From the NCBI GenBank assembly GCA_902386255.1, contig CABMII010000007.1, forward strand, positions 1 to 34,543: 34,543 nucleotides of DNA, given 5' to 3'. Positions within the stretch are counted from its first letter, which is position 1. Every line of letters begins with the position of its first letter. The position numbers were made by a program, and so were the translations under genes. The notes beneath the pieces are model-generated. The model was not told where the DNA came from. It ran no database searches and saw only the letters and a program-made list of their open reading frames with translations. Positions 6,457 through 27,079 of this stretch are shown in pieces. The DNA comes from an uncultured archaeon (GTDB lineage Archaea > Halobacteriota > Methanosarcinia > Methanosarcinales > Methanoperedenaceae).

Positions 6457-7245
6457 ATGAAATCGAGAGGGCTATTAAGTGTTCTAGCATTTTCAGAGAA
6501 GCGAGAAAATATTCTCTTTTTGCTACTCGAAGAACCAAGGACTTTAGCTGAAATTAAAGACCATTTCAATATATCTTCTCCAGAGATTCTCCCCCGCATC
6601 AAGGAAATGGAAACCAAGAATTTAATTTACAAAGATAATAAACACTATGTTCTAACCCCAATTGGAAAAGTTGTAGCCAAGTTTTTTCAGCCATTAATCA
6701 ATACTTTGCATGTAATCGAGGAAAATGAAGAATTCTGGGAAAAACATATGGTCGAAGCTATTCCACAACACTTTTTGGAAAGAATTGGTGAATTAGGAAG
6801 TTGCGGATTGGTTGAAAATAGATTGGAAAATATGTACGAACCACATACAGAATTTTTTGAAAATATAGCAAAATCAGAATTTGTAATGGGAGTCGCCCCG
6901 ATATTTAATCCAGCCTATCCATCGTTCTTTTTACAGTTGGCTCAGCGAAAAGTTAGCATAGCTCTGATCTTAACTAAAAATGTTTTTGAGAAAGTTAAGA
7001 ATGAGCATGGGAATAACCTTCAAAGATTTTCCGATTACAATAATACAAGCGTACACATTTTAGATGAGGACATTAAACTTGCTTTTGTAGTAACCAGCAA
7101 ATTTCTCTCCCTTTCTCTCTTCTTTAAAAATGGCACTTTCGATGCCCAGAGAGATTTGATAAGTTTTGATAAATCTGCTTTAAAATGGGGAGAAGAACTT
7201 TTCAAATATTATAAAGAGCGCTCCGAAGAAATAAAGCGTTTATAA
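6457..7245 (+). CDS. Winged-helix transcriptional regulator, FilR1/DUF1724 type
   Basis: 262-aa protein. Residues 10-75 are a winged helix: FSEKRENILFLLLEEPRTLA, EIKDHFNISSPEILPRIKEM as the helix-turn-helix, then a wing ending in YVLTPIGKVVAKF. Residues 110-255 match the FilR1/DUF1724 effector domain of methanogen regulators (PHTEFFENIAKSEFVMGVAP and the NTSVHILDEDIKLAFVVTSK region). This group is expanded in Methanosarcinales; a few members regulate methane-metabolism or filamentation genes. The gene converges on the UbiA-like gene, and the two coding regions overlap by 44 bases tail to tail. A repeat upstream may be its operator. It could control the neighbouring peptide operon, but nothing shows this directly. 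Confidence 0.85.
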   Translation: MKSRGLLSVLAFSEKRENILFLLLEEPRTLAEIKDHFNISSPEILPRIKEMETKNLIYKDNKHYVLTPIGKVVAKFFQPLINTLHVIEENEEFWEKHMVEAIPQHFLERIGELGSCGLVENRLENMYEPHTEFFENIAKSEFVMGVAPIFNPAYPSFFLQLAQRKVSIALILTKNVFEKVKNEHGNNLQRFSDYNNTSVHILDEDIKLAFVVTSKFLSLSLFFKNGTFDAQRDLISFDKSALKWGEELFKYYKERSEEIKRL

Positions 7246-8074
7246 GTAGCCGCAGGCTAACTTCAGTAGTAGATTCACCATCGACCAAGAACTCACGTAT
7301 AAGTTTCCTGGCTCTTGGTTCGGTTTCGGTAGCTACGGAATAATAATTAATGCAGATTATGCCAGCAGTGAAACTATACAAAAGTATTATTGGCTCAAAC
7401 ACAATGAATCTCATAATGATCGCAATGAGCATGCCTAAATGTATCATTATATGCATAATCGAAAGAAAAGCCTTGGTCTTCTTTTCACCTAACTGTACAG
7501 GTAAAGTTCTGATACCAGCCAGCGAATCGCCCTTTACATCTTTAAAATCATATATTATCGAATTTATGAAAACCTTGCTACTGAAAAAAGAGAAAACAAA
7601 AATTAACGGAATAATATTGTTTACGGATTTTCCAGCAATCCCGGTGATAAAGGATCCCCACGTCAAAGCAACAACAAGATTCTTAACTCCAAGGCCGCCC
7701 TTAAGCTTCAAATTTGATCCACAGATTTTTATGCCTTTGCTATACAAATAACCAACTACAAGTGGCAGAAAAGGCAAAATGTATAATCCCTCTTCGAATA
7801 AAATGTAGGTTCCAATGATAAAGGCTGAGATGGACACAAGAAAAGCAATATCTCTTCTTGAGCCCATTAATTCGCTTCTGTTTACTATATCTTCTTTGCA
7901 TTCAAGTGTCCTGTCCAGAGTATATATTGTATATATCACAAAACCACCTGCTATACAAGCTAAAACTCTGGATTCTGTTCCAAGGAAAAGAGTTGCTATG
8001 AAGAGCCTGAAAGCTCCTGAAATCGCCACCAATGTTGAAGCATTCAGAAGATGTACTGTTGCTTTGAATCCCAT
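7202..8074 (-). CDS. UbiA-family membrane prenyltransferase
   Basis: 290-aa integral membrane protein with about eight hydrophobic segments. UbiA enzymes transfer isoprenyl chains from a diphosphate to an acceptor, using two Asp-rich motifs on the cytoplasmic face. Here the first is YTLDRTLECKEDIVNR (about residues 52-67), and the second is IYDFKDVKGDSLAGIRTLPV (about 165-185), which is typical. The first motif lacks the usual Asn-Asp opening, so substrate cannot be guessed. The gene lies 99 bases after the FAD oxidase on the same strand and may end the peptide operon or have its own promoter (TATAAT-like sequences sit in the gap). Acceptors in this family include quinones, haem, chlorophyll and archaeal lipids. 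Confidence 0.85.
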   Translation of the reverse strand: MGFKATVHLLNASTLVAISGAFRLFIATLFLGTESRVLACIAGGFVIYTIYTLDRTLECKEDIVNRSELMGSRRDIAFLVSISAFIIGTYILFEEGLYILPFLPLVVGYLYSKGIKICGSNLKLKGGLGVKNLVVALTWGSFITGIAGKSVNNIIPLIFVFSFFSSKVFINSIIYDFKDVKGDSLAGIRTLPVQLGEKKTKAFLSIMHIMIHLGMLIAIIMRFIVFEPIILLYSFTAGIICINYYSVATETEPRARKLIREFLVDGESTTEVSLRLLINALFLRSALYNI

Positions 8075-8126
8075 GCCCCAATAAATTTAGGATCCCTTAA
8101 TATTAGTAAAGTCATGTAAGATTATA

Positions 8127-8146
8127 CGATTCAACTAATGGAATCG
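8127..8146. promoter_or_regulatory. Perfect inverted repeat upstream of the UbiA-like gene
   Basis: CGATTC at 8127-8132 is the reverse complement of GAATCG at 8141-8146, with an 8-nt spacer. It lies in the 99-bp gap between the FAD oxidase gene and the UbiA-like gene, between two TATAAT-like sequences on the minus strand. It could be an operator for a separate UbiA promoter or a small RNA hairpin; the stem is too short to decide. Confidence 0.3.
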
Positions 8147-8173
8147 ATTAAGTATTATACAAGATGGCCCAAT

Positions 8174-9394
8174 TTAAAGCAAATGTTGTACTTGCTCCGC
8201 TGCTTTTTTTCCAGAGGATATGGCGGCTGACATCCCATATGGCATGAGATGGTGACTATCCACATGAGTATAGTCACCTGCTAAAAAAACGCGCGGTGAC
8301 GGATGTATTTTTTCTTCAGCCCAGGCACCATAACATACCTTCGAAATAATAGGGCTGATCATGTCCCAGTGATGATGGTCGGCGAATTTTATTTGTTCCT
8401 CCCTAATGCTAAAACCCAAGGCATCAAGAGTTTGCAACGCCATTTTCACCATTTCTTTTGCATGCAATTTACGCACTGGCACGGATTTAATTCCCATGAA
8501 GTAAAAGTATAATAATATAAGGCCATCAACAGCGGTTTTCTGCCGCACAACGGTACTGGTAGCAAGGTCCGGGGTAGCAATGTACGAAAACTCAGGAATC
8601 AGGTTTTCCGGTATTGCTAAAACGCACAGACTTCCTGTGCCGTAACGAATTCCATCCAAAAAAAGTCTGCTGGGGCTTTCTGCACGGACGATAACCTGAG
8701 ATGCTTCATGGGCTGGTATCGAGCAGATAACGGCCTTTGCAGAAAGGTGCGTAATTTGGCCCCCCTCATCGACAGTAACAACAACATTTTGTCCCTGATC
8801 ACTGATACTGAGTACCTGAACCCCGCAACGAAGCCGCGATGATATACTCTCAATCAAGCCGGCAATCAACGCTCTATTGCCGGTTTCATAATGTCCCATC
8901 TGAAATACTTGAAAGGCATCAAGCCTCCTTTGAGGAATATATTCACATATCTCACCTGGGTGAATCAACTGAAAAAAAGCATTTAACAACTCGTACGATG
9001 GCGGGGAAAGGTCAGATATATCCTGTGCGCCTCCTTTGACAAAAGCAGTAATCTCTTCGATCTCATTGTTGTGAAACTCAATTTGTTCAAGACAATCCAC
9101 AACACTTTTGCCAAACCAGGTGCGTCCATTCGAACAAACTCCTATATTGCCATATTCTTCGATCAGTGATGGCGGAGCGATCCCGGCCGGGAAGAATGTC
9201 GGTTCAGTAGCAAAAACTGCTCCGATTTCATAGCTTACTCCCATTTTTTCACGGGTAAGCACGCGCCCTCCGGCATTCGTTTTTTGTTCAAGCACCAAAA
9301 TGTCTTTATCACGCAATGCGTTTGCTGCGTAAAGCCCGGCCAATCCGGCGCCGACAACTATTACATCCTTACATTCGTCTTGAAATCTTTCCAT
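8174..9394 (-). CDS. FAD-dependent amine oxidase/desaturase-like oxidoreductase
   Basis: 406 aa from ATG 9394, chosen because AAGGGATCAA precedes it and the FAD motif then begins near residue 10; an in-frame ATG at 9436 would overlap the upstream gene by 31 bases. The N-terminus VIVVGAGLAGLYAANAL is the dinucleotide-binding fold, followed by LEQKTNAGGRVLTREK, the GG-R signature of flavin amine oxidases, protoporphyrinogen oxidases and phytoene desaturases. The C-terminus RVFLAGDYTHVDSHHLMPYG closes the FAD site. It starts 11 bases after the prenyltransferase-like gene, so it is in the same transcript. A role oxidising the modified peptide or an isoprenoid is inference. Confidence 0.85.
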   Translation of the reverse strand: MERFQDECKDVIVVGAGLAGLYAANALRDKDILVLEQKTNAGGRVLTREKMGVSYEIGAVFATEPTFFPAGIAPPSLIEEYGNIGVCSNGRTWFGKSVVDCLEQIEFHNNEIEEITAFVKGGAQDISDLSPPSYELLNAFFQLIHPGEICEYIPQRRLDAFQVFQMGHYETGNRALIAGLIESISSRLRCGVQVLSISDQGQNVVVTVDEGGQITHLSAKAVICSIPAHEASQVIVRAESPSRLFLDGIRYGTGSLCVLAIPENLIPEFSYIATPDLATSTVVRQKTAVDGLILLYFYFMGIKSVPVRKLHAKEMVKMALQTLDALGFSIREEQIKFADHHHWDMISPIISKVCYGAWAEEKIHPSPRVFLAGDYTHVDSHHLMPYGMSAAISSGKKAAEQVQHLL

Positions 9395-9405
9395 TTGATC
9401 CCTTG

Positions 9406-10224
9406 CTAATAATACAGATTGAAGCTGGAACAACAACCGCTTTCGACCTCTGCTTGATCCAGTGAGATGATCACCTTTTGCGCGCCGGAAAGGCGGTAAG
9501 CGTCAGAGAGAACCGGATGGTGGAGATTATCAATGAACATCTTAGGATTCCGGGGAAACAAATGAAGTGAAAGTCCTGCTTCTTTCGTAGTGAAGCCGAA
9601 GTTTACCCATTTGCATTGTTCGAGCAACGCCAGAGTACGTGCCCCAAATAGGATGTTCAGTAGGCTACGAGATTGTTGGATATGGGATGTGTGCAACACG
9701 GGATAAACTTTTACCGCAGTTCCACCGTCTAGTCCAAAATCAAAGCCAAACAGCAAACCTGGCTGAATCTTCAAAATCCGTGCAATTGGAGATATTTCTG
9801 GGAAGTTAAGAACCATTGCTTCTTTCTCAGGATAGTGTTCGATAATATGCCACAGTTTCACACGCGATGCGCTTGATTGTGTCCGGACATCTATCCCTAA
9901 AGATGTGCACTTCACTTTGTCATATTGAAAATCCGTACCGACAAGTTGCTGATAAAGGGAAAAGTTCAATGGGAAGGCTTGTGCATAATTTTTCAGGAAA
10001 GTAACTATTTTGGGATTAAGACTGAATTCTCCACTATTCTTGTACCAGAGGTTAAACCGCAATGGATGCACGGCCTCGCCACATACTTTACAGGAGCATT
10101 CCAGATGAGCTTCGGGCGAAGCCCTCAATAAATCCAGAAATGGAACACAAAGCGGTGTTGCTCTGGATGCAAAGGATGTCAAATGCCTGCGGTATTTTTC
10201 TATTTGCACATTTGCTGATTGCAT
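9406..10224 (-). CDS. Probable LynF/TruF/PatF-like peptide prenyltransferase (ABBA fold)
   Basis: 272-aa soluble protein. Laid beside my memory of cyanobactin PatF, several blocks line up in the same order: an N-terminal H-x3-F...P-x5-F segment with a later SC(K/Q)V (ECSCKVCGEAVHPLRF); SLGIDV next to S-x-V-(K/M)-L; FGFDFGLDGGTAVKVYP next to IGFELFFDGRSRVDLGP; a basic ILFGARTL block; and the C-terminal EVESGCCSSFNLYY next to ELEKSRLENFCFYY. Cyanobactin enzymes add dimethylallyl or geranyl groups to Tyr, Ser, Thr or Trp of ribosomal peptides. Length (usual about 300) fits. It lies 20 bases after the radical SAM gene and 11 before the FAD oxidase. The position in a peptide-modification operon supports the call, but similarity is weak and needs structural confirmation. 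Confidence 0.6.
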   Translation of the reverse strand: MQSANVQIEKYRRHLTSFASRATPLCVPFLDLLRASPEAHLECSCKVCGEAVHPLRFNLWYKNSGEFSLNPKIVTFLKNYAQAFPLNFSLYQQLVGTDFQYDKVKCTSLGIDVRTQSSASRVKLWHIIEHYPEKEAMVLNFPEISPIARILKIQPGLLFGFDFGLDGGTAVKVYPVLHTSHIQQSRSLLNILFGARTLALLEQCKWVNFGFTTKEAGLSLHLFPRNPKMFIDNLHHPVLSDAYRLSGAQKVIISLDQAEVESGCCSSFNLYY

Positions 10225-10244
10225 ACTTAAGAATTATCCTTTTA

Positions 10245-11678
10245 TTAGATGGCGCGAGGTGGCATTTTGGTTTGATGCGGACAGTCCGGCGGGGCTTCGT
10301 ATATAGTACCGTAACAGGCAAGAGAATCCCTGAAACACCATCCTTTCACATATATACATCTTGCAAAATCGGTACAATTGTAACATGCAGAATTTTGAAA
10401 AAGTTCGCGTGAGGGATTATTGAATCGGTGTATAGCATCGGAATTCCATACGCCCATAACTCCGTCTTCGAAAACATTCCCTACCGTATAAGCTGGTTCA
10501 TTTGGCGTTTGTTCGCATAAGGTAACTGCGCCATCCGGCTTTACTAACATTTTGGTGCGCCCTCCTGAACAATTCGGTCGTTTTGCCCAAACCTCGGGTG
10601 CAAGATTCCTGGGTCCGCCAGTTGAAACATCCTTTTGCATGAATACAAAAATATCAGGAAATTCTTCCTTGATCTGGCTCTCCATAGATATAAGGCGTTT
10701 TTTCTGTTCTAGGTTCAGGAAAAGCCTGTCGTTGTGCCGGTAAAAGCCCCGGCTGTACTGAACAAAATGAAACTCGTTTATCCCCATCGGCGCAAGACGC
10801 CTAACCAGTTCCAATGGAGCATCAGCATTATGTGAAGTAAGCACCGCTTTTACTCTTGGACTGATTCCGGCTTCGATCAGGTTTCGAAGAGTATCTTGCG
10901 CTTTGGAAAAATAGTTCTCGTGCCGTGTCAAAAAAGAAGCGAGCCTGCCATCAGTGCTGTCCAGGGATACCTGCATGGGACGCAGCGCCCAGTGGGACAC
11001 GTCTTTATTACCTATGTTCAAGTCAGCCATCCTTTGAGCCTGCTCCGGTGAAATATGGCTTTTTGTGGAAACAAAGAATGAAAAATTCCGTTTGTCTAAC
11101 TCTTCCATAATTTCCAGGGCATCATGGCGGCAAAAAATATCAGCGCCGCCAATATCGACCAATGTAATTTCATTTTCTGCGATTTCATCCAGAATAGGGA
11201 TCCATTCATCCAGACTACGCTCAGCACATTGCTCACGTTCAGCATAACAGTAAATACAGTCGCACTGGCATCGGTTGGTAAAGCTGATGGCGATGGTGAT
11301 AGGACGCAGCATCCTGTGCGGTGTCATCGTGTAGTTGGCAAAGTCCGGGATCAGGTTTTCCATGGGCTTGTCAAAGGAAGGGGACCGTGGTCCTTCCAGT
11401 GAAAAAAAGCCATCCAGATGGGCAAGTTCAGTAGTAATCTGCTCAATTTCCCCGGCACTTTGCCCGTCGGTAGAATTTATTATTTCCTGTGCCGCTGTTT
11501 TTATCTCTGCCCATGTATTATTCCCATCAAAAAGAAGAATAAATATCGATTCAAAAGGTGAAAGCACACGTGCAACTTGCTTTTTCAAGGAATGCAAATA
11601 TATCACCGTGCAATTGCCATCATTCCTGAAACGCCAATTTTCCGATATCATCGGCCTATCCGTATCTGAAAATATCAT
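10245..11678 (-). CDS. Radical SAM/SPASM peptide-modifying enzyme with PqqD-like N-terminal domain
   Basis: 477 aa. Residues 10-95 look like a PqqD-type RiPP recognition element (LSPFESIFILLFDGNNTWAE is the typical central helix). The radical SAM core carries FTNRCQCDCIYCYAEREQC, i.e. CX3CX2C for the SAM-binding 4Fe-4S cluster. The C-terminal SPASM region has RPNCSGGRTKMLVKPDGAVT, LCEQTP, and then the cysteines of SACYNCTDFARCIYVKGWC, enough for two auxiliary clusters. Such enzymes install thioether or carbon-carbon crosslinks, or epimerise residues, in ribosomal peptides. The start has CAGGAG before ATG. The precursor-like gene lies 150 bases upstream and the prenyltransferase-like gene follows at 20 bases. 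The chemistry on this peptide is not predictable. Confidence 0.92.
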   Translation of the reverse strand: MIFSDTDRPMISENWRFRNDGNCTVIYLHSLKKQVARVLSPFESIFILLFDGNNTWAEIKTAAQEIINSTDGQSAGEIEQITTELAHLDGFFSLEGPRSPSFDKPMENLIPDFANYTMTPHRMLRPITIAISFTNRCQCDCIYCYAEREQCAERSLDEWIPILDEIAENEITLVDIGGADIFCRHDALEIMEELDKRNFSFFVSTKSHISPEQAQRMADLNIGNKDVSHWALRPMQVSLDSTDGRLASFLTRHENYFSKAQDTLRNLIEAGISPRVKAVLTSHNADAPLELVRRLAPMGINEFHFVQYSRGFYRHNDRLFLNLEQKKRLISMESQIKEEFPDIFVFMQKDVSTGGPRNLAPEVWAKRPNCSGGRTKMLVKPDGAVTLCEQTPNEPAYTVGNVFEDGVMGVWNSDAIHRFNNPSRELFQNSACYNCTDFARCIYVKGWCFRDSLACYGTIYEAPPDCPHQTKMPPRAI

Positions 11679-11700
11679 TTTTCTCCTGATTACTTGTCCC

Positions 11701-11769
11701 CTATCCTTCCACCATTCCTAAAATTACTCCCCCAAGCTGTCCCAAAATGAATGTAAACAAATCTTTCAC
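11701..11769 (-). CDS. Possible leader-type mini-ORF (19-22 aa) inside the hairpin region
   Basis: Between the precursor and the radical SAM gene a short frame reads VKDLFTFILGQLGGVILGMV and ends EG-stop. A TTG at 11758-11760 has GAGGTG six bases upstream, mirroring the strong site before the precursor; a GTG at 11767-11769 is the alternative. The peptide is hydrophobic with Gly-Gly and could be a translated leader coupling ribosomes to the hairpin, a second tiny precursor, or the remnant of a longer gene (the frame stays open seven codons further back). No family known; chance cannot be excluded. Confidence 0.3.
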   Translation of the reverse strand: MKDLFTFILGQLGGVILGMVEG

Positions 11770-11786
11770 CTCTTTTGGGACAGCTT
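11734..11786 (-). terminator. Perfect 14-bp inverted repeat between precursor and radical SAM genes
   Basis: AAGCTGTCCCAAAA (11734-11747) and TTTTGGGACAGCTT (11773-11786) are exact reverse complements separated by 25 nt. In the leftward transcript the hairpin forms 43 bases after the precursor stop and 55 before the radical SAM start. No long U tract follows, so complete termination is unlikely; partial termination or RNA processing that leaves much more precursor than enzyme mRNA is the common arrangement in RiPP operons. A transposon-end palindrome is the other reading. Confidence 0.6.
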
Positions 11787-11828
11787 ATCTCCCGGTGCTA
11801 ATTTGACACGGGAAGGGAAGTATGCTGC

Positions 11829-11993
11829 TTACCAATGCCAGCCGTTTGCACATGAATCACAGCCTACTATAGCTGCCTTATGGGCTTCTGTTACGGCTTC
11901 CTTCAAAACCTTCGCATCGACATTCACATTTTTTGCCTTCAGTGCTTTCTGAAGGGCGGAAATTCCCTTTTCCTTATTGGTCGCGTCACTCAT
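11829..11993 (-). CDS. RiPP precursor-like peptide (54 aa) with C-terminal GCDSCANGWHW
   Basis: The start at 11993 is set by AAGGAGGTGAAAACT, a near-perfect ribosome binding site; an upstream in-frame ATG (12023) lacks one. Residues 1-42 are a charged amphipathic leader, beginning MSDATNKEKGISALQKALKA and ending in TEAHKAAIV. The last 11 residues, GCDSCANGWHW, hold all the Cys and Trp of the protein: a CxxC pair and a WxW end. That composition suits radical SAM crosslinking and Trp prenylation. The gene heads the operon with radical SAM, prenyltransferase-like and FAD genes, and is opposed by a divergent Ntn hydrolase. No double-Gly cleavage site is visible; cleavage before or near Gly44 is a guess. 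I know no described family with this core. Confidence 0.75.
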   Translation of the reverse strand: MSDATNKEKGISALQKALKAKNVNVDAKVLKEAVTEAHKAAIVGCDSCANGWHW

Positions 11994-12053
11994 AGTTTTC
12001 ACCTCCTTAACCATTGAATGCAATGTTCTAAAGTCCTCTTATTTATTAGTAAT

Positions 12054-12062
12054 TATTTATAA
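12054..12062 (-). promoter_or_regulatory. Probable TATA box of the peptide operon
   Basis: On the minus strand the sequence reads TTATAAATA, centred about 65 bases before the precursor ATG. Archaeal spacing would place the transcript start near 12033, leaving a 40-nt leader that contains the strong ribosome binding site. It lies in the 284-bp AT-rich divergent region 12024-12307, which otherwise holds no gene. Confidence 0.45.
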
Positions 12063-12267
12063 TCTTAGATGAATCAAATAATATTATACTATTAAACTAT
12101 ACACAGGTTCATAAGTAATTTCACATAAATACGTCACAGTAGTGTTGATTATGCATATTTATTCAGGTTGCTGTGTATAAAAAACATTTATGGATTGCTG
12201 TTGTGAATCCTATTTTATAACAATATTAGATTATATATCGTACAAGTGAAATAATTCCTTAAAAGAC

Positions 12268-12275
12268 TTTATATA
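12268..12275 (+). promoter_or_regulatory. Probable TATA box of the C45 hydrolase gene
   Basis: TTTATATA lies about 37 bases upstream of the ATG at 12308, preceded by AAAAGAC as a possible BRE. A start near 12296 would leave a short leader with GGGTGGT before the ATG. Confidence 0.5.
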
Positions 12276-12307
12276 TTGGCAATGATTACTCAAATCAGGG
12301 TGGTATT

Positions 12308-13723
12308 ATGAGACAAGATGAAATACTTAAAAAAGCACGGTTTAAAGAACAAAATGGCGTAAAGATTCTGCACATTAAAGGCAAACCATATGAGATGGGA
12401 TTTCAGCATGGCTATTTATTGGCTGATAAAATTGCCCTTATGATAAACAGGACGCTTCTGGCTACTGCCGCTTATGTTGCCAAACAGACCGACTCGGATC
12501 TTAAAAAAGCGCAGGAGATGTTGTGGAGCGGACAGAAAAAGGCGGAACCCTTTATTCCGGTGGAGTTTAAAGAAGAAATGAGGGGGATCGCTGACGGCGT
12601 AAAAGCCGCCGGGGTTGGCGTGACATTGGAGCAGATATTGCTCTGGAATACCAACTATGACCAGTGGTGTATCTATGCCCATCCCCACTGGCAGGGCGAC
12701 AGCGGGGAAAATCCGGATACTCAAGGCTTAACCCAACCTGCTGGCGGCGGATGCAGCAGCTTTTGCGCCTGGGATGAATGGGCAGGCGGCGATGGCAAAT
12801 TGATTTTCGGCAAGAATGAAGATAATTTCAACATGCCGGAGCAACTGGATAACCGGATGATGGTCATAGCCGACCCGGATAACGGGTTTGGTCATGCCTT
12901 CCTGTCTTATCCCGGGATGATCGGGCTGGACGGGGGCTTAAATGAGAATGGTTTTGAGATGATGACCCAACTGAATTCCATGCAATACGAAAGCATGGCA
13001 GGATGTGGTATTGCCATATTCACACGCCTGTTGCTGACCCATGCAAGTACGGTGGATGATGCCATCAAAATATTCCAGGAGCACCCCCGTTGCGCAGGCA
13101 TTGCATACCATGTTGCAGATGCCAAAGCCAAAAAGGCGGCGGTTGTTGAAACGTCTTCCAGAATGGTTTCTGTTCGTTATCCTATGCCCAACGTCAAGGC
13201 GATGTGGCAGACAAACCATTCAAACTGCTATCCGGGCTGGACGGGTTATTCGGGATACAATATGGTTGCAGACCAGGTCCTTGTGAACGAACTAAAGGAT
13301 ATTTCCACTATTGAAAAATGGCAGAACAGCCTCAAAGAGCCGTATAATTTTTATGTCCAGGCGCCCAGCCGTTTTGAACGGTACAGGCAGTTGATCTACG
13401 ACGAATATCGCGGCAAAATCACTCCGGAAAATGCCATAAAAATATTAAGCGACCGCTACGACCCATATACGAAAATGACCCGTCCGGCGGATTTTCCCTC
13501 GTATACTAATAATATCCTCTGCACCATATGCGCCATGTATCCTGATTATACTTATCAGGCACAAGAGCCTGTTGGAACGTTTAAAGCCCATGTCGCCAAT
13601 ATGTGGAGCCTTGTGGCTTATCCCGGAACCGGAGATATCTGGCTTGCAATAAATAACTTCCCGGCGCAGTATGGCGGGTATGAACATTTCAATCTAAAGG
13701 ATTTGCTGGGTCGCATGCGTTAA
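12308..13723 (+). CDS. C45-family Ntn hydrolase/acyltransferase-like protein
   Basis: 471 aa. Residues 20-45 (ILHIKGKPYEMGFQHGYLLA) are the usual opening of the C45/acyl-CoA:6-aminopenicillanate acyltransferase-like and phospholipase-B-like group. The likely nucleophile is C149 in PAGGGCSSFCAWDEWAG; in this family self-cleavage exposes the Cys as an N-terminal nucleophile. FGKNEDNF after it and ALNLNENGFEMM-like GGLNENGFEMMTQLNS further on are family features. No signal peptide is seen, so the enzyme is probably cytoplasmic. Such enzymes hydrolyse or transfer amides. It is divergent from the peptide operon over a shared 284-bp region; leader removal or acylation of the peptide is possible but inferred only from position. 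Confidence 0.8.
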   Translation: MRQDEILKKARFKEQNGVKILHIKGKPYEMGFQHGYLLADKIALMINRTLLATAAYVAKQTDSDLKKAQEMLWSGQKKAEPFIPVEFKEEMRGIADGVKAAGVGVTLEQILLWNTNYDQWCIYAHPHWQGDSGENPDTQGLTQPAGGGCSSFCAWDEWAGGDGKLIFGKNEDNFNMPEQLDNRMMVIADPDNGFGHAFLSYPGMIGLDGGLNENGFEMMTQLNSMQYESMAGCGIAIFTRLLLTHASTVDDAIKIFQEHPRCAGIAYHVADAKAKKAAVVETSSRMVSVRYPMPNVKAMWQTNHSNCYPGWTGYSGYNMVADQVLVNELKDISTIEKWQNSLKEPYNFYVQAPSRFERYRQLIYDEYRGKITPENAIKILSDRYDPYTKMTRPADFPSYTNNILCTICAMYPDYTYQAQEPVGTFKAHVANMWSLVAYPGTGDIWLAINNFPAQYGGYEHFNLKDLLGRMR

Positions 13724-24064: not shown

Positions 24065-24949
24065 ATGCAGAAACGCGAGAATATCCTTATCGAAGCACTA
24101 CCATATATCCGCGAGTTTTATGACTCCATGATGGTAATCAAGATGGGGGGTCATGCCATTGTCGACCCCGAAATTATGGAGATGATCGTGCAGGATATCG
24201 TACTCCTGAAATTCGTGGGAATCCATCCGGTGATAGTGCACGGCGGAGGTCCCGAGATTACGGAAAAAATGGAACGCATGGGGAAAAAACCGGAATTCGT
24301 GGCGGGTTTGCGGGTTACGGATGATGAAACTCTTGAGATTGCGCGAATGGTGCTCGTTGGAAATGTAAACAGCAAGATAGTTTCGTTAATCAGCAAGCAT
24401 GGCGGCAAAGGCATAGGTCTTTCAGGGAGCGATGGCAGGCTCATTGTAGCAAAGAAGTTAGCCCCCCAGCGCGTGACCGTTGGCGGCGTGGAGAAAGAAA
24501 TCGACCTTGGCTGGGTTGGCGAGACCGAGGTTATCAATCCTGAAATAATCATGATTCTTGCAGGCAAAGGATACATTCCGGTCATTTCGCCAATAGCGAC
24601 TGATGAAAAAGGGAATGACCTTAACGTAAATGCAGATACGGTAGCTGGAGATATCGCATCGGCTCTCGGCGCAAAAAAACTGATTGCGCTTACGGATGTA
24701 CCCGGAATCCTGCGCGACCCGAAAGACAAAAAAACACGTATTTCCAAAATAGCTTTCGATGAGATTGATAGGCTTATTGCAGATAACATCATAAGCGGCG
24801 GGATGATACCGAAGGTTAAATCAAGCGCAGCTGCGCTCGGTGGAGGAGTTGAGCAGGTTCATATTATCGATGGCAGCTCTCCGCATTCGCTGCTGCTTGA
24901 ACTGTTCACCCATGAAGGTATCGGGACTATGATATACAGGAATAAGTGA
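24065..24949 (+). CDS. argB: Acetylglutamate kinase
   Basis: 294 aa. Catalyses ATP-dependent phosphorylation of N-acetylglutamate, the second step of arginine synthesis. VIKMGGHAIVDPE holds the catalytic Lys and Gly-rich loop, VIVHGGGPEI binds substrate, GLSGSDG and LNVNADTVAGDIASALGAKK are typical, and IISGGMIPKVKSSAAAL contains the second catalytic Lys. The length and sequence fit the archaeal enzyme; residues that give arginine feedback inhibition cannot be judged by eye. It overlaps the next gene (GTGA) by four bases. No other arginine gene lies in the window. Confidence 0.96.
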   Translation: MQKRENILIEALPYIREFYDSMMVIKMGGHAIVDPEIMEMIVQDIVLLKFVGIHPVIVHGGGPEITEKMERMGKKPEFVAGLRVTDDETLEIARMVLVGNVNSKIVSLISKHGGKGIGLSGSDGRLIVAKKLAPQRVTVGGVEKEIDLGWVGETEVINPEIIMILAGKGYIPVISPIATDEKGNDLNVNADTVAGDIASALGAKKLIALTDVPGILRDPKDKKTRISKIAFDEIDRLIADNIISGGMIPKVKSSAAALGGGVEQVHIIDGSSPHSLLLELFTHEGIGTMIYRNK

Positions 24950-25299
24950 TAGTGGTGACCGAAAAAGAAACGAAAATTGAAAAAGTACCGGTTGTGAAAA
25001 GCACGACCCCTGAAGAGCGGAAACAGAAATTCATCGAGGGAATCAAAAAAACAGTATTACCGGCATTTATCAGCGCGGCTTTTGCCATATTGTTTTTTGT
25101 AAAATTCGGCGATGCGAAGGACGTTTCCTGGTTTTCGGTCATCCTGTTGGTTCTTCTTCTCTCATATTATATCCAGAGAGGGATTTATCCTTTAATCGGG
25201 GTGAAGGTAAAGGAATTTGAAACTAAAGACTGGCTGTATGTGGAATTTCTGGTCATAGTATATTTTTGGATTATCTGGATACTCTTGTTGAATCAATGA
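24946..25299 (+). CDS. EMC6-like small membrane protein
   Basis: 117 aa with three hydrophobic segments (ILPAFISAAFAIL-like TVLPAFISAAFAILFFVKFG; WFSVILLVLLLSYYIQRGIY; and VEFLVIVYFWIIWILLL). GVKVKEFETKDWLYVEFLVI is close to the C-terminal pattern I remember from archaeal EMC6-like proteins, which relate to a subunit of the membrane insertase EMC. The start is GTG at 24946 overlapping argB; GTG codons at 24952 and 24955 are alternatives. It stands 10 bases before rli1, so translation-related roles (membrane insertion, ribosome recycling) are neighbours. Confidence 0.6.
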   Translation: MIVVTEKETKIEKVPVVKSTTPEERKQKFIEGIKKTVLPAFISAAFAILFFVKFGDAKDVSWFSVILLVLLLSYYIQRGIYPLIGVKVKEFETKDWLYVEFLVIVYFWIIWILLLNQ

Positions 25300-25309
25300 A
25301 GGGTGTTTA

Positions 25310-27079
25310 ATGCGACTTGCTGTTTTAGACCGTGACAGGTGCCAGCCCAAGATGTGCGGGCTCCAGTGCATCAAATTCTGCCCCAGGGTGAGGACGGGCG
25401 ATGAGACAATAATTATAGGCGAGGATGAAAAACCGGTCATTTCTGAAGAATTATGCGTGGGATGCGGCATCTGTGTCAACCGCTGCCCGTTTGGTTCTAT
25501 CATGATTATCAGCCTGCCTGAGAAACTCGAAGAAGCGACGCACAGGTACGGCAAGAACGGGTTTGCATTATACGGGCTCCCGGTCCCGACTGTCGGGAAA
25601 GTGACAGGCATCCTCGGCCCGAACGGGATAGGAAAAAGCACGGCGATAAACATACTATCAGGAACTTTGAAGCCCAACCTTGGGCGCGGCAGGATAGGAT
25701 GGGAAGAGATACTGGAATATTATGCAGGAACAGCGCTTGCCGATTACCTTGAAGGCGTATCGAAAGGAAAGGTAAAGACATCTCAAAAGCCGCAATACGT
25801 GGACATGATACCCAGGAAATTCAAAGGCAAGGTCTCGCAGCTTTTATCAAAAACGGATGAAAGAGGAGTACTTAAGGAACTCGTAACAAGGCTCGATATC
25901 GCCGATATCACTGACCGCAAAATCGATGAATTAAGCGGCGGTGAACTCCAGAGAGTGGCGCTGGCAGCATGCGTTGCAAGGGATGCGGATTTCTATTTCA
26001 TTGACGAGATAAGTCCTTATCTTGATATTTACCAGAGGATAAAAGCAGCCCAGATTATCAGGGAACTTGCAGAGAAAAAAGCCGTAATGGTGGTAGAACA
26101 TGACCTTGCAATCCTGGATTTGCTTGCTGATGTGGTTCATATCGCATACGGCACGCCCGGAGGTTTCGGTGTCATTACCCATCCGAAAGGAGTGAGAATT
26201 GGTATTAACGAATACCTGAAAGGTTTCCTGCGTGAGGAGAATGTCCGAATCCGCACGGAAGCCATAAAGTTCGATATTCATGCGCCGCAGGCAGCAAAGG
26301 ATGTACCTTCCCTTTTGAAGTTTGAGCAATTCTCCAAAAAATATGAAGAGGGATTTGAACTCATAGCGCAGGGCGGCGAGATAAACAAGGGCGAAGTCAC
26401 CGGTATTGTAGGTCCGAACGGGATTGGTAAATCCACTTTCGTAAAGATACTGGCTGGCGAAATAGAACCGACGAGCGGGAAGATAGATATGGATATCAAG
26501 GTGTCTTACAAACCCCAGTATATCAAAGCCGAGGAGCCGGTTCTTGTCTCTGATTATCTTCGCTCTTTAAGCAAAGAGGTCGATACAAGCTATTACCAGA
26601 CTGAGATATTACGACCGCTTCAGCTTGAGCGGCTCATGAAACAGAAGCTTGATGATTTAAGCGGGGGGGAACTGCAGAGGGTTGCGATAGCTGCGTGTTT
26701 ATCGCGAACTGCTGACCTTTATCTTCTGGATGAGCCATCGGCGCATCTTGATGTTGAGCAGAGGGTGCTGGCCACGAAGGTCATCAGGCGCTTTGCAGAG
26801 AACAATAAGGTAACTGCAATGGTGGTTGACCATGATATTTACATGATAGACATGCTGAGCGACAGGCTTCTTGTTTTTGAGGGTGAGCCGATGAAGAAGG
26901 GTGAGGTTCACGGGCCTTTTGACATGCGACAGGGCATGAACAGGTTCCTTAAAGGGATTGGAATCACATTCAGGCGGGATGAGGAGACAAAGAGACCGAG
27001 GGTGAATAAGCTTGGCTCGCAGCTTGACAGGACGCAGAAGGCTGAGGGGGAGTATTATTACAGCGTGGAGGGGAGTTGA
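25310..27079 (+). CDS. Ribosome recycling ATPase ABCE1/Rli1
   Basis: 589 aa, the expected length. The N-terminus has two 4Fe-4S motifs: DRCQPKMCGLQCIKFCPR and LCVGCGICVNRCPFGSI. Two ABC domains follow, each with GPNGIGKST (near residues 103 and 367), Q-loops and the signature LSGGELQRVA(L/I)A, joined by the family hinge. It splits 70S ribosomes after termination together with aRF1/Pelota in archaea and is essential. The start ATG follows GGGTG. It appears cotranscribed with argB and the EMC6-like gene. Marker of archaeal (or eukaryal) origin for the window. Confidence 0.97.
   Translation: MRLAVLDRDRCQPKMCGLQCIKFCPRVRTGDETIIIGEDEKPVISEELCVGCGICVNRCPFGSIMIISLPEKLEEATHRYGKNGFALYGLPVPTVGKVTGILGPNGIGKSTAINILSGTLKPNLGRGRIGWEEILEYYAGTALADYLEGVSKGKVKTSQKPQYVDMIPRKFKGKVSQLLSKTDERGVLKELVTRLDIADITDRKIDELSGGELQRVALAACVARDADFYFIDEISPYLDIYQRIKAAQIIRELAEKKAVMVVEHDLAILDLLADVVHIAYGTPGGFGVITHPKGVRIGINEYLKGFLREENVRIRTEAIKFDIHAPQAAKDVPSLLKFEQFSKKYEEGFELIAQGGEINKGEVTGIVGPNGIGKSTFVKILAGEIEPTSGKIDMDIKVSYKPQYIKAEEPVLVSDYLRSLSKEVDTSYYQTEILRPLQLERLMKQKLDDLSGGELQRVAIAACLSRTADLYLLDEPSAHLDVEQRVLATKVIRRFAENNKVTAMVVDHDIYMIDMLSDRLLVFEGEPMKKGEVHGPFDMRQGMNRFLKGIGITFRRDEETKRPRVNKLGSQLDRTQKAEGEYYYSVEGS

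Follow-up and report, generated by a model that had tools for sequence, protein, structure and literature searches.

A predicted mobile cassette combining a radical SAM maturase with an F-family peptide prenyltransferase in Methanosarcinales archaea

Results

A four-gene cassette recurs in genomes of the order

The window analyzed here is an entire contig, CABMII010000007.1 (34,543 nucleotides), from a metagenome-assembled genome (MAG) of an uncultured Methanoperedenaceae archaeon (GCA_902386255.1; G000 in our set; 2.6 Mb, 96% complete). It carries four consecutive genes encoding a small precursor-like peptide, a radical S-adenosylmethionine (SAM)/SPASM enzyme, a PatF-type prenyltransferase and a flavin adenine dinucleotide (FAD)-dependent enzyme. 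These probably constitute a mobile Methanosarcinales cassette for a ribosomally synthesized and post-translationally modified peptide (RiPP), with the product predicted to be a radical-crosslinked, prenylated peptide that has a C-terminal Trp/His core. The genes, their conserved order, the folds and families of their products and the conserved core are direct observations. An original prediction made from the window alone had proposed these four genes as part of a longer pathway, and every open reading frame (ORF) on which it relied was recovered at its coordinates in an ORF check of the window.

The prenyltransferase was searched for in all 186 genomes of the order, seven of which contain it, and the neighborhoods of the matches were then read. 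In the window and in five other genomes the four genes occur in identical order and on the same strand: Candidatus Methanoperedens nzgw24 (G050), MnB_21 (G047) and LC 1 (G052), the Methanosarcinaceae archaeon STD2_68 (G078) and the Methanosarcinales archaeon SMBSF02 (G023). The conserved synteny that the original prediction had set as its own check is therefore present. In the seventh genome (G059) the cassette is truncated, the contig starting inside the prenyltransferase gene. Across the cassettes the radical SAM enzyme is 86-94% and the FAD enzyme 83-95% identical to relatives, and the FAD gene, which is conserved in all seven genomes, is the sole such gene found in the genome of the window. 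In a 394-genome sample of the phylum, the PF19156 prenyltransferase family was confined to the two cassette-bearing Methanoperedens genomes that the sample included, and no PatF-like homologues were found in viral contigs or in plasmids. The recurrence of the four genes, together with purifying selection on the precursor, is more than chance.

The precursor has an invariant C-terminal core

Orthologues of the precursor-like peptide form part of the cassette in five other genomes and bear out its assignment, with ratios of nonsynonymous to synonymous substitution (dN/dS) of 0.05-0.31, which indicate purifying selection. Seven precursor copies were compared (n = 7), with STD2_68 contributing two in tandem. 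CANGWHW forms the last seven residues of all seven copies, whereas the leader varies, and overall identity is 59-93%. The peptide of the window ends in GCDSCANGWHW, and a Cys lies three positions ahead of the first Cys of CANGWHW in the variants CDSC, CEQC, CAQC and CEGC. The core residues include an invariant Trp, His and Trp, and neither Tyr nor Thr. A constant core with a drifting leader is the opposite of the pattern in most antimicrobial RiPPs, which suggests that the product has one fixed target or role. The tandem precursor genes of STD2_68 (L017, 3772-4214) are near-identical, one with CEQC and the other with CAQC.

The whole intergenic region between the precursor and radical SAM genes folds at -47.2 kcal/mol (z -2.87), and a hairpin is found at the equivalent place in every relative locus examined, its sequence differing between lineages. 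Covariation comprises one double compensatory change (G-C/C-G), which is weak on its own. The hairpin has no match in Rfam, and a genomic repeat was rejected as an explanation, as an exact copy is not present elsewhere. It is probably an attenuation or processing element that favors the precursor over the enzymes.

The radical SAM/SPASM and FAD enzymes

The second gene encodes a radical SAM/SPASM protein as originally called (Pfam Radical_SAM 2e-13, SPASM 2e-10), and it adjoins the gene of a short precursor, as looked for in a RiPP locus. Its PqqD-like domain was also upheld: residues 31-88 align with archaeal PqqD domains (hhalign probability 92.4%, P = 5e-7), and a Pfam search for a RiPP recognition element (RRE)/PqqD-like domain gave no match even at E = 10. 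The nearest solved enzymes include SuiB, SkfB and PqqE, which are maturases of RiPPs or of pyrroloquinoline quinone (PQQ). Among curated profiles, MftC, AlbA and WgkB score best, each far under its cut-off, with MftC at the top (58.6 bits vs a cut-off of 265), and none of the mftB, mftD, mftE or mftF neighbors of a mycofactocin locus was seen beside the cassette. A reasonable guess is that the enzyme acts on Cys residues. The FAD protein matches the Amino_oxidase family (6e-20), in agreement with its amine-oxidase-like annotation; a TTG at 9436 opens its longest ORF, but in relatives the start is the ATG that corresponds to 9394.

The predicted prenyltransferase belongs to the F-family

F-family peptide prenyltransferases are otherwise known from cyanobactin pathways. 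The PatF/LynF-like identity of the archaeal protein (PRENYLTRANSFERASE) is supported by PF19156 (69.3 bits, cut-off 28.8) and by phmmer, in which all matches are F-family prenyltransferases and the best is SmiF (4e-29). The ABBA fold, on which the original prediction had staked its case, appears in the AlphaFold2 model as an alternating alpha-beta-beta-alpha order at a mean predicted local distance difference test (pLDDT) score of 84.4, and the top 19 Foldseek matches of this model are all F-family members (KgpF, LimF, DciF, PagF, PirF and PatF), with KgpF at 8.6e-19 and LimF at a TM score of about 0.8. Conserved residues are E42, K46, R56, D112, R114 and K123, of which R56, D112, R114 and K123 are invariant and correspond, with matching spacing, to Arg66, Asp125, Arg127 and Lys136 of active members. 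The partial loss of these four residues has been proposed as the cause of inactivity in PatF, a non-prenylating member of the family (PMC3668578). KgpF prenylates Trp and LimF prenylates His (PMC13290415), and because the core contains both residues and no Tyr, Trp or His is the likely prenyl acceptor. A literature search on the prenyltransferases FjoF, Fl3F, DciF and OcyF, named in PDB entries, found nothing relevant.

An exchanged catalytic block and horizontal mobility

The DNA of the window is about 90% identical to that of nzgw24 over the radical SAM gene and 75-80 codons at the start of the prenyltransferase gene. From about 9990 to 9411 of the window the identity is only about 50%, and it recovers to about 90% once the FAD gene is reached. 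The catalytic two-thirds of the enzyme comes as two alleles, the first in the window, SMBSF02 and STD2_68 and the second in nzgw24, MnB_21, LC 1 and G059, with the catalytic residues intact in both. The trees conflict: the window groups with nzgw24 in the radical SAM and FAD trees, is unseparated from other Methanoperedens in the tree of the prenyltransferase N-terminus, and falls with SMBSF02 and STD2_68 in the C-terminal tree, where this grouping is fully supported and set off by a long internal branch. Homologous exchange of the catalytic part of this one enzyme would explain the pattern most simply, and might change the prenyl donor or the prenylation site.

The radical SAM enzyme of STD2_68 shares 86% identity with that of the window but only 43% with its counterpart in a member of the same family, the Methanosarcina genome G148 described below, so the cassette has moved between families. 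The STD2_68 contig also has a cupin, MarR and MATE block resembling the one beside the G148 locus, which argues against mis-binning. These comparisons indicate that the cassette is horizontally mobile among Methanosarcinales archaea; PurL, whose cross-family matches of 36% may be paralogues, was left out of the argument. The same trio of amino-acid-kinase, EMC6-like and ABCE1-like genes is separated from the cassette by about 14 kb in the window (24065-27079) and by 3.4 kb in LC 1 (L018, 32-2970), so the two cassettes occupy different sites in the same region.

Discussion

A proposed pathway and its alternatives

In the pathway that we propose, the radical SAM/SPASM enzyme would bind the precursor leader through its RRE domain and would crosslink the CxxC...NGWHW core by radical chemistry, with a Cys thioether or a Trp-centered C-C bond as the most likely linkage. 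The PatF-type ABBA enzyme would prenylate the core, most likely at the C-terminal Trp, with His or the other Trp as alternatives, and the FAD enzyme would oxidize or dehydrogenate either the prenyl group or the peptide itself. Release of the product would depend on host proteases and exporters whose genes lie elsewhere, and the intergenic hairpin would probably hold the precursor above the enzymes in abundance.

Several considerations weigh against this pathway. The case is built on sequences and predicted structure. The prenyltransferase matches TIGR04445 (4.6e-23) at 82 bits, under the cut-off of 140, and AlphaFold gave only a poor model for the radical SAM enzyme (pLDDT 41), which was discarded, so that the RRE assignment comes from profiles. 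Most cassette-bearing genomes are MAGs, and the binning of SMBSF02 is uncertain because its contig is just 5.4 kb. The cassette itself has no protease, YcaO or exporter, and among the 27 window proteins scanned there was no Pfam family of a PatA/PatG subtilisin-like protease, PatD/YcaO or equivalent, as a cyanobactin cluster would require.

It is possible, if rather doubtful, that the C-terminal WHW is cut out to give a small conserved product, a redox cofactor or a pheromone (mycofactocin-, PQQ- or ComX-like), in place of a diversifying bacteriocin. Such a product would suit an invariant core behind a variable leader, MftC as the best radical SAM profile and the presence of an FAD oxidase, as in cofactor pathways, and prenylation of a C-terminal Trp is known for PalQ-type peptides (PMC13290415). 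The MftC match is, however, far under its cut-off, no MftE-like peptidase or dependent dehydrogenase lies nearby, and nothing essential can depend on a cassette that so few genomes of the order carry. We regard it as improbable that the ABBA protein is inactive or acts on a small molecule, with no prenylation of the peptide. PatF itself sets a precedent for inactivity (PMC3668578), but both alleles retain, without variation, the residues altered in PatF, dN/dS within alleles is 0.26-0.36, and the gene always adjoins those of the precursor and the radical SAM enzyme.

Relation to known systems

The archaeal prenyltransferase is like the cyanobactin F-family enzymes (KgpF, LimF, SmiF and LynF/TruF/PatF; TIGR04445, PF19156) in its ABBA fold, in homology over 245-267 residues, and in its catalytic Arg/Asp/Arg/Lys and C-terminal (N)LYY, but it is linked to an RRE-radical SAM enzyme in place of the PatA/PatD/PatG machinery, has an exchangeable catalytic block and is accompanied by no cyanobactin precursor. 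The radical SAM enzyme shares CxxxCxxC, SPASM, an RRE-like N-terminus and a small adjacent precursor with the RiPP maturases SuiB, AlbA, SkfB, MftC, WgkB and PqqE, and differs from them as a distinct subfamily, far under every NCBIfam equivalog cut-off, that has a prenyltransferase partner. The prenyltransferase-cyclase enzymes NctPC and ChrPC resemble the cassette in having Trp in a peptide as the prenylation target, which is predicted here (PMC13290415); in Methanoperedens the second isoprenoid-tailoring slot is held by an FAD enzyme and not a cyclase, the genes are separate, and a radical SAM enzyme is added.

In Archaea, lanthipeptides have been characterized (PMC10105419, PMC12144867) and radical SAM RiPP clusters are already a predicted class, in the form of ranthipeptide/sactipeptide clusters (PMC12144867). 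The latter are like the cassette in being archaeal radical SAM clusters and unlike it in that prenyltransferases and prenylation are absent from the main text of that survey; the main text of PMC10105419 likewise makes no mention of prenylation. The part of the open-licence literature covered described neither a prenylated RiPP nor an F-family prenyltransferase from Archaea, and offered nothing tying the F-family to radical SAM maturases, so the combination appears to be new. If correct, the proposed pathway would be the first to be described in Archaea for a prenylated ribosomal peptide. It would join radical-SAM crosslinking with peptide prenylation, would show that the F-family moves between domains as well as from one archaeal family to another, and would give anaerobic methane oxidizers a conserved specialized metabolite. 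The naturally swapped prenyltransferase halves would be a ready-made experiment on donor or acceptor specificity.

Related loci in other archaea

The Methanosarcina genome G148 (a single contig of 5,751,492 bp) has a related locus (L039, 6905-10734; G148:C1 near 3,943,900-3,947,700), whose precursor ends in VGCDQCSNGMRW (CSNGMRW) and has CxxC...NG..W in common with the cassette core. It encodes a radical SAM enzyme 42% identical to that of the window, a 281-residue protein and a 412-residue squalene-hopene-cyclase-like (class-II-terpene-cyclase-like) protein with a DADST motif, and it adjoins the cupin, MarR and MATE block. In the 281-residue protein, ExSxK, R and GYEF...KxY motifs follow one another as they do in PatF enzymes, with partly similar spacing (identical for ExSxK and the R at +14). 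Nothing convincing linked it to PatF in Pfam, NCBIfam or the PDB, and direct comparison gave weak statistics (hhalign P about 0.009; shuffle-test rank 18 of about 2001), so an ABBA-like identity is suggestive only. NctPC combines an ABBA prenyltransferase and a terpene cyclase, as this locus may do, and acts on Trp (PMC13290415), and for this reason a Trp meroterpenoid is a natural hypothesis for the G148 product. At a sister locus in a second Methanosarcina genome (L038, 7941-10315 and 12552-13486; G149:C13), the homologue of the 281-residue protein is frameshifted and a DLDD-motif cyclase-like ORF is split.

We would tentatively entertain, as an unlikely generalization, a Methanosarcinales family of conserved C-terminal-Trp meroterpenoid RiPPs, in which a radical SAM enzyme and an ABBA prenyltransferase would act on a CxxC-x-NG-x-x-W core and isoprenoid tailoring would be lineage-specific (the FAD enzyme in Methanoperedens, a class II terpene cyclase in Methanosarcina), with the invariant product serving as a signal or cofactor and the product type switched by catalytic-block swaps.

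In other archaea, six loci that encode more distant radical SAM relatives (about 30-43% identity) were read, and a small Cys-containing ORF stands beside the radical SAM gene in five of them (L039, L040, L041, L054 and L055); none was found at the sixth, L038, in a listing that excluded short ORFs. At L040 (9196-11017), L041 (9388-11210), L054 (8457-10253) and L055 (963-2731), the small ORFs next to the radical SAM/SPASM relatives are of other Cys-rich kinds (e.g. ...VGCGFCEVCITACTDCVAYS) and no prenyltransferase is present, and L040 and L041 adjoin clustered regularly interspaced short palindromic repeat (CRISPR)-type repeats and Cmr-like genes.

Features of the window and genes flanking the cassette

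Table 1. Features of the cassette and its surroundings in the window
Feature	Coordinates	Strand	Basis or remarks
Shine-Dalgarno-like AAGGAGGTG	12000..12008	-	6-7 nt 5' of precursor ATG; relatives have similar GGAGGTG/GAGGTG
Precursor peptide, 54 aa, leader and C-terminal core CANGWHW	11829..11993	-	ORF; orthologues in 5 other genomes
Hairpin, 14-bp stem, between precursor and radical SAM gene	11734..11786	-	Folding energy; position kept in relatives
Radical SAM/SPASM peptide maturase, 477 aa, CxxxCxxC, PqqD-like N-terminus	10245..11678	-	Pfam/NCBIfam, solved-enzyme matches, hhalign
RRE/PqqD-like domain, residues about 31-88, putative leader-peptide binding	11415..11588	-	hhalign
PatF/LynF/KgpF-type (F-family, ABBA) peptide prenyltransferase (predicted), 272 aa	9406..10224	-	Profiles, phmmer, AlphaFold2/Foldseek, conserved residues
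Exchanged prenyltransferase block (simplest reading), codons about 80-272, allele 1	9411..9990	-	DNA identity profile and conflicting trees
FAD-dependent amine-oxidase/HpnE/phytoene-desaturase superfamily enzyme, 406 aa	8174..9394	-	Pfam/NCBIfam and relatives
UbiA-like gene, flanking cassette	7202..8074	-	PRK13591 402 bits
C45 hydrolase gene, divergent from cassette	12308..13723		AAT/C45 6e-44
Convergent FilR1-like regulator and UbiA pair	6457-8074		Recurs in several Methanoperedens genomes, independent of cassette

The original prediction had described a five-gene pathway that included the UbiA-like protein, with the divergent C45 hydrolase alongside; the precursor, radical SAM, PatF-type and FAD genes stand as a conserved cassette, and synteny rules out UbiA and C45 as members of it. 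The full pathway is very improbable, even though UbiA is codirectional with the FAD gene and 99 bp 3' of it in the window and both flank genes recur beside the cassette in nzgw24, since the convergent UbiA-FilR pair behaves as an independent unit, reversed relative to the cassette in nzgw24, the only other genome where it adjoins one, and present without a cassette in G041 and G060. UbiA homologues are moreover widespread, in 19 of the 31 genomes of the genus and mostly without the cassette, which makes UbiA a neighbor and not a member. The C45 gene adjoins the cassette only in the window and nzgw24, and the cassettes of MnB_21 and LC 1 are flanked by unrelated genes. Beside the nzgw24 cassette (L019, 12223-13624), the C45 hydrolase gene is apparently frameshifted and is recovered as two overlapping tblastn pieces.

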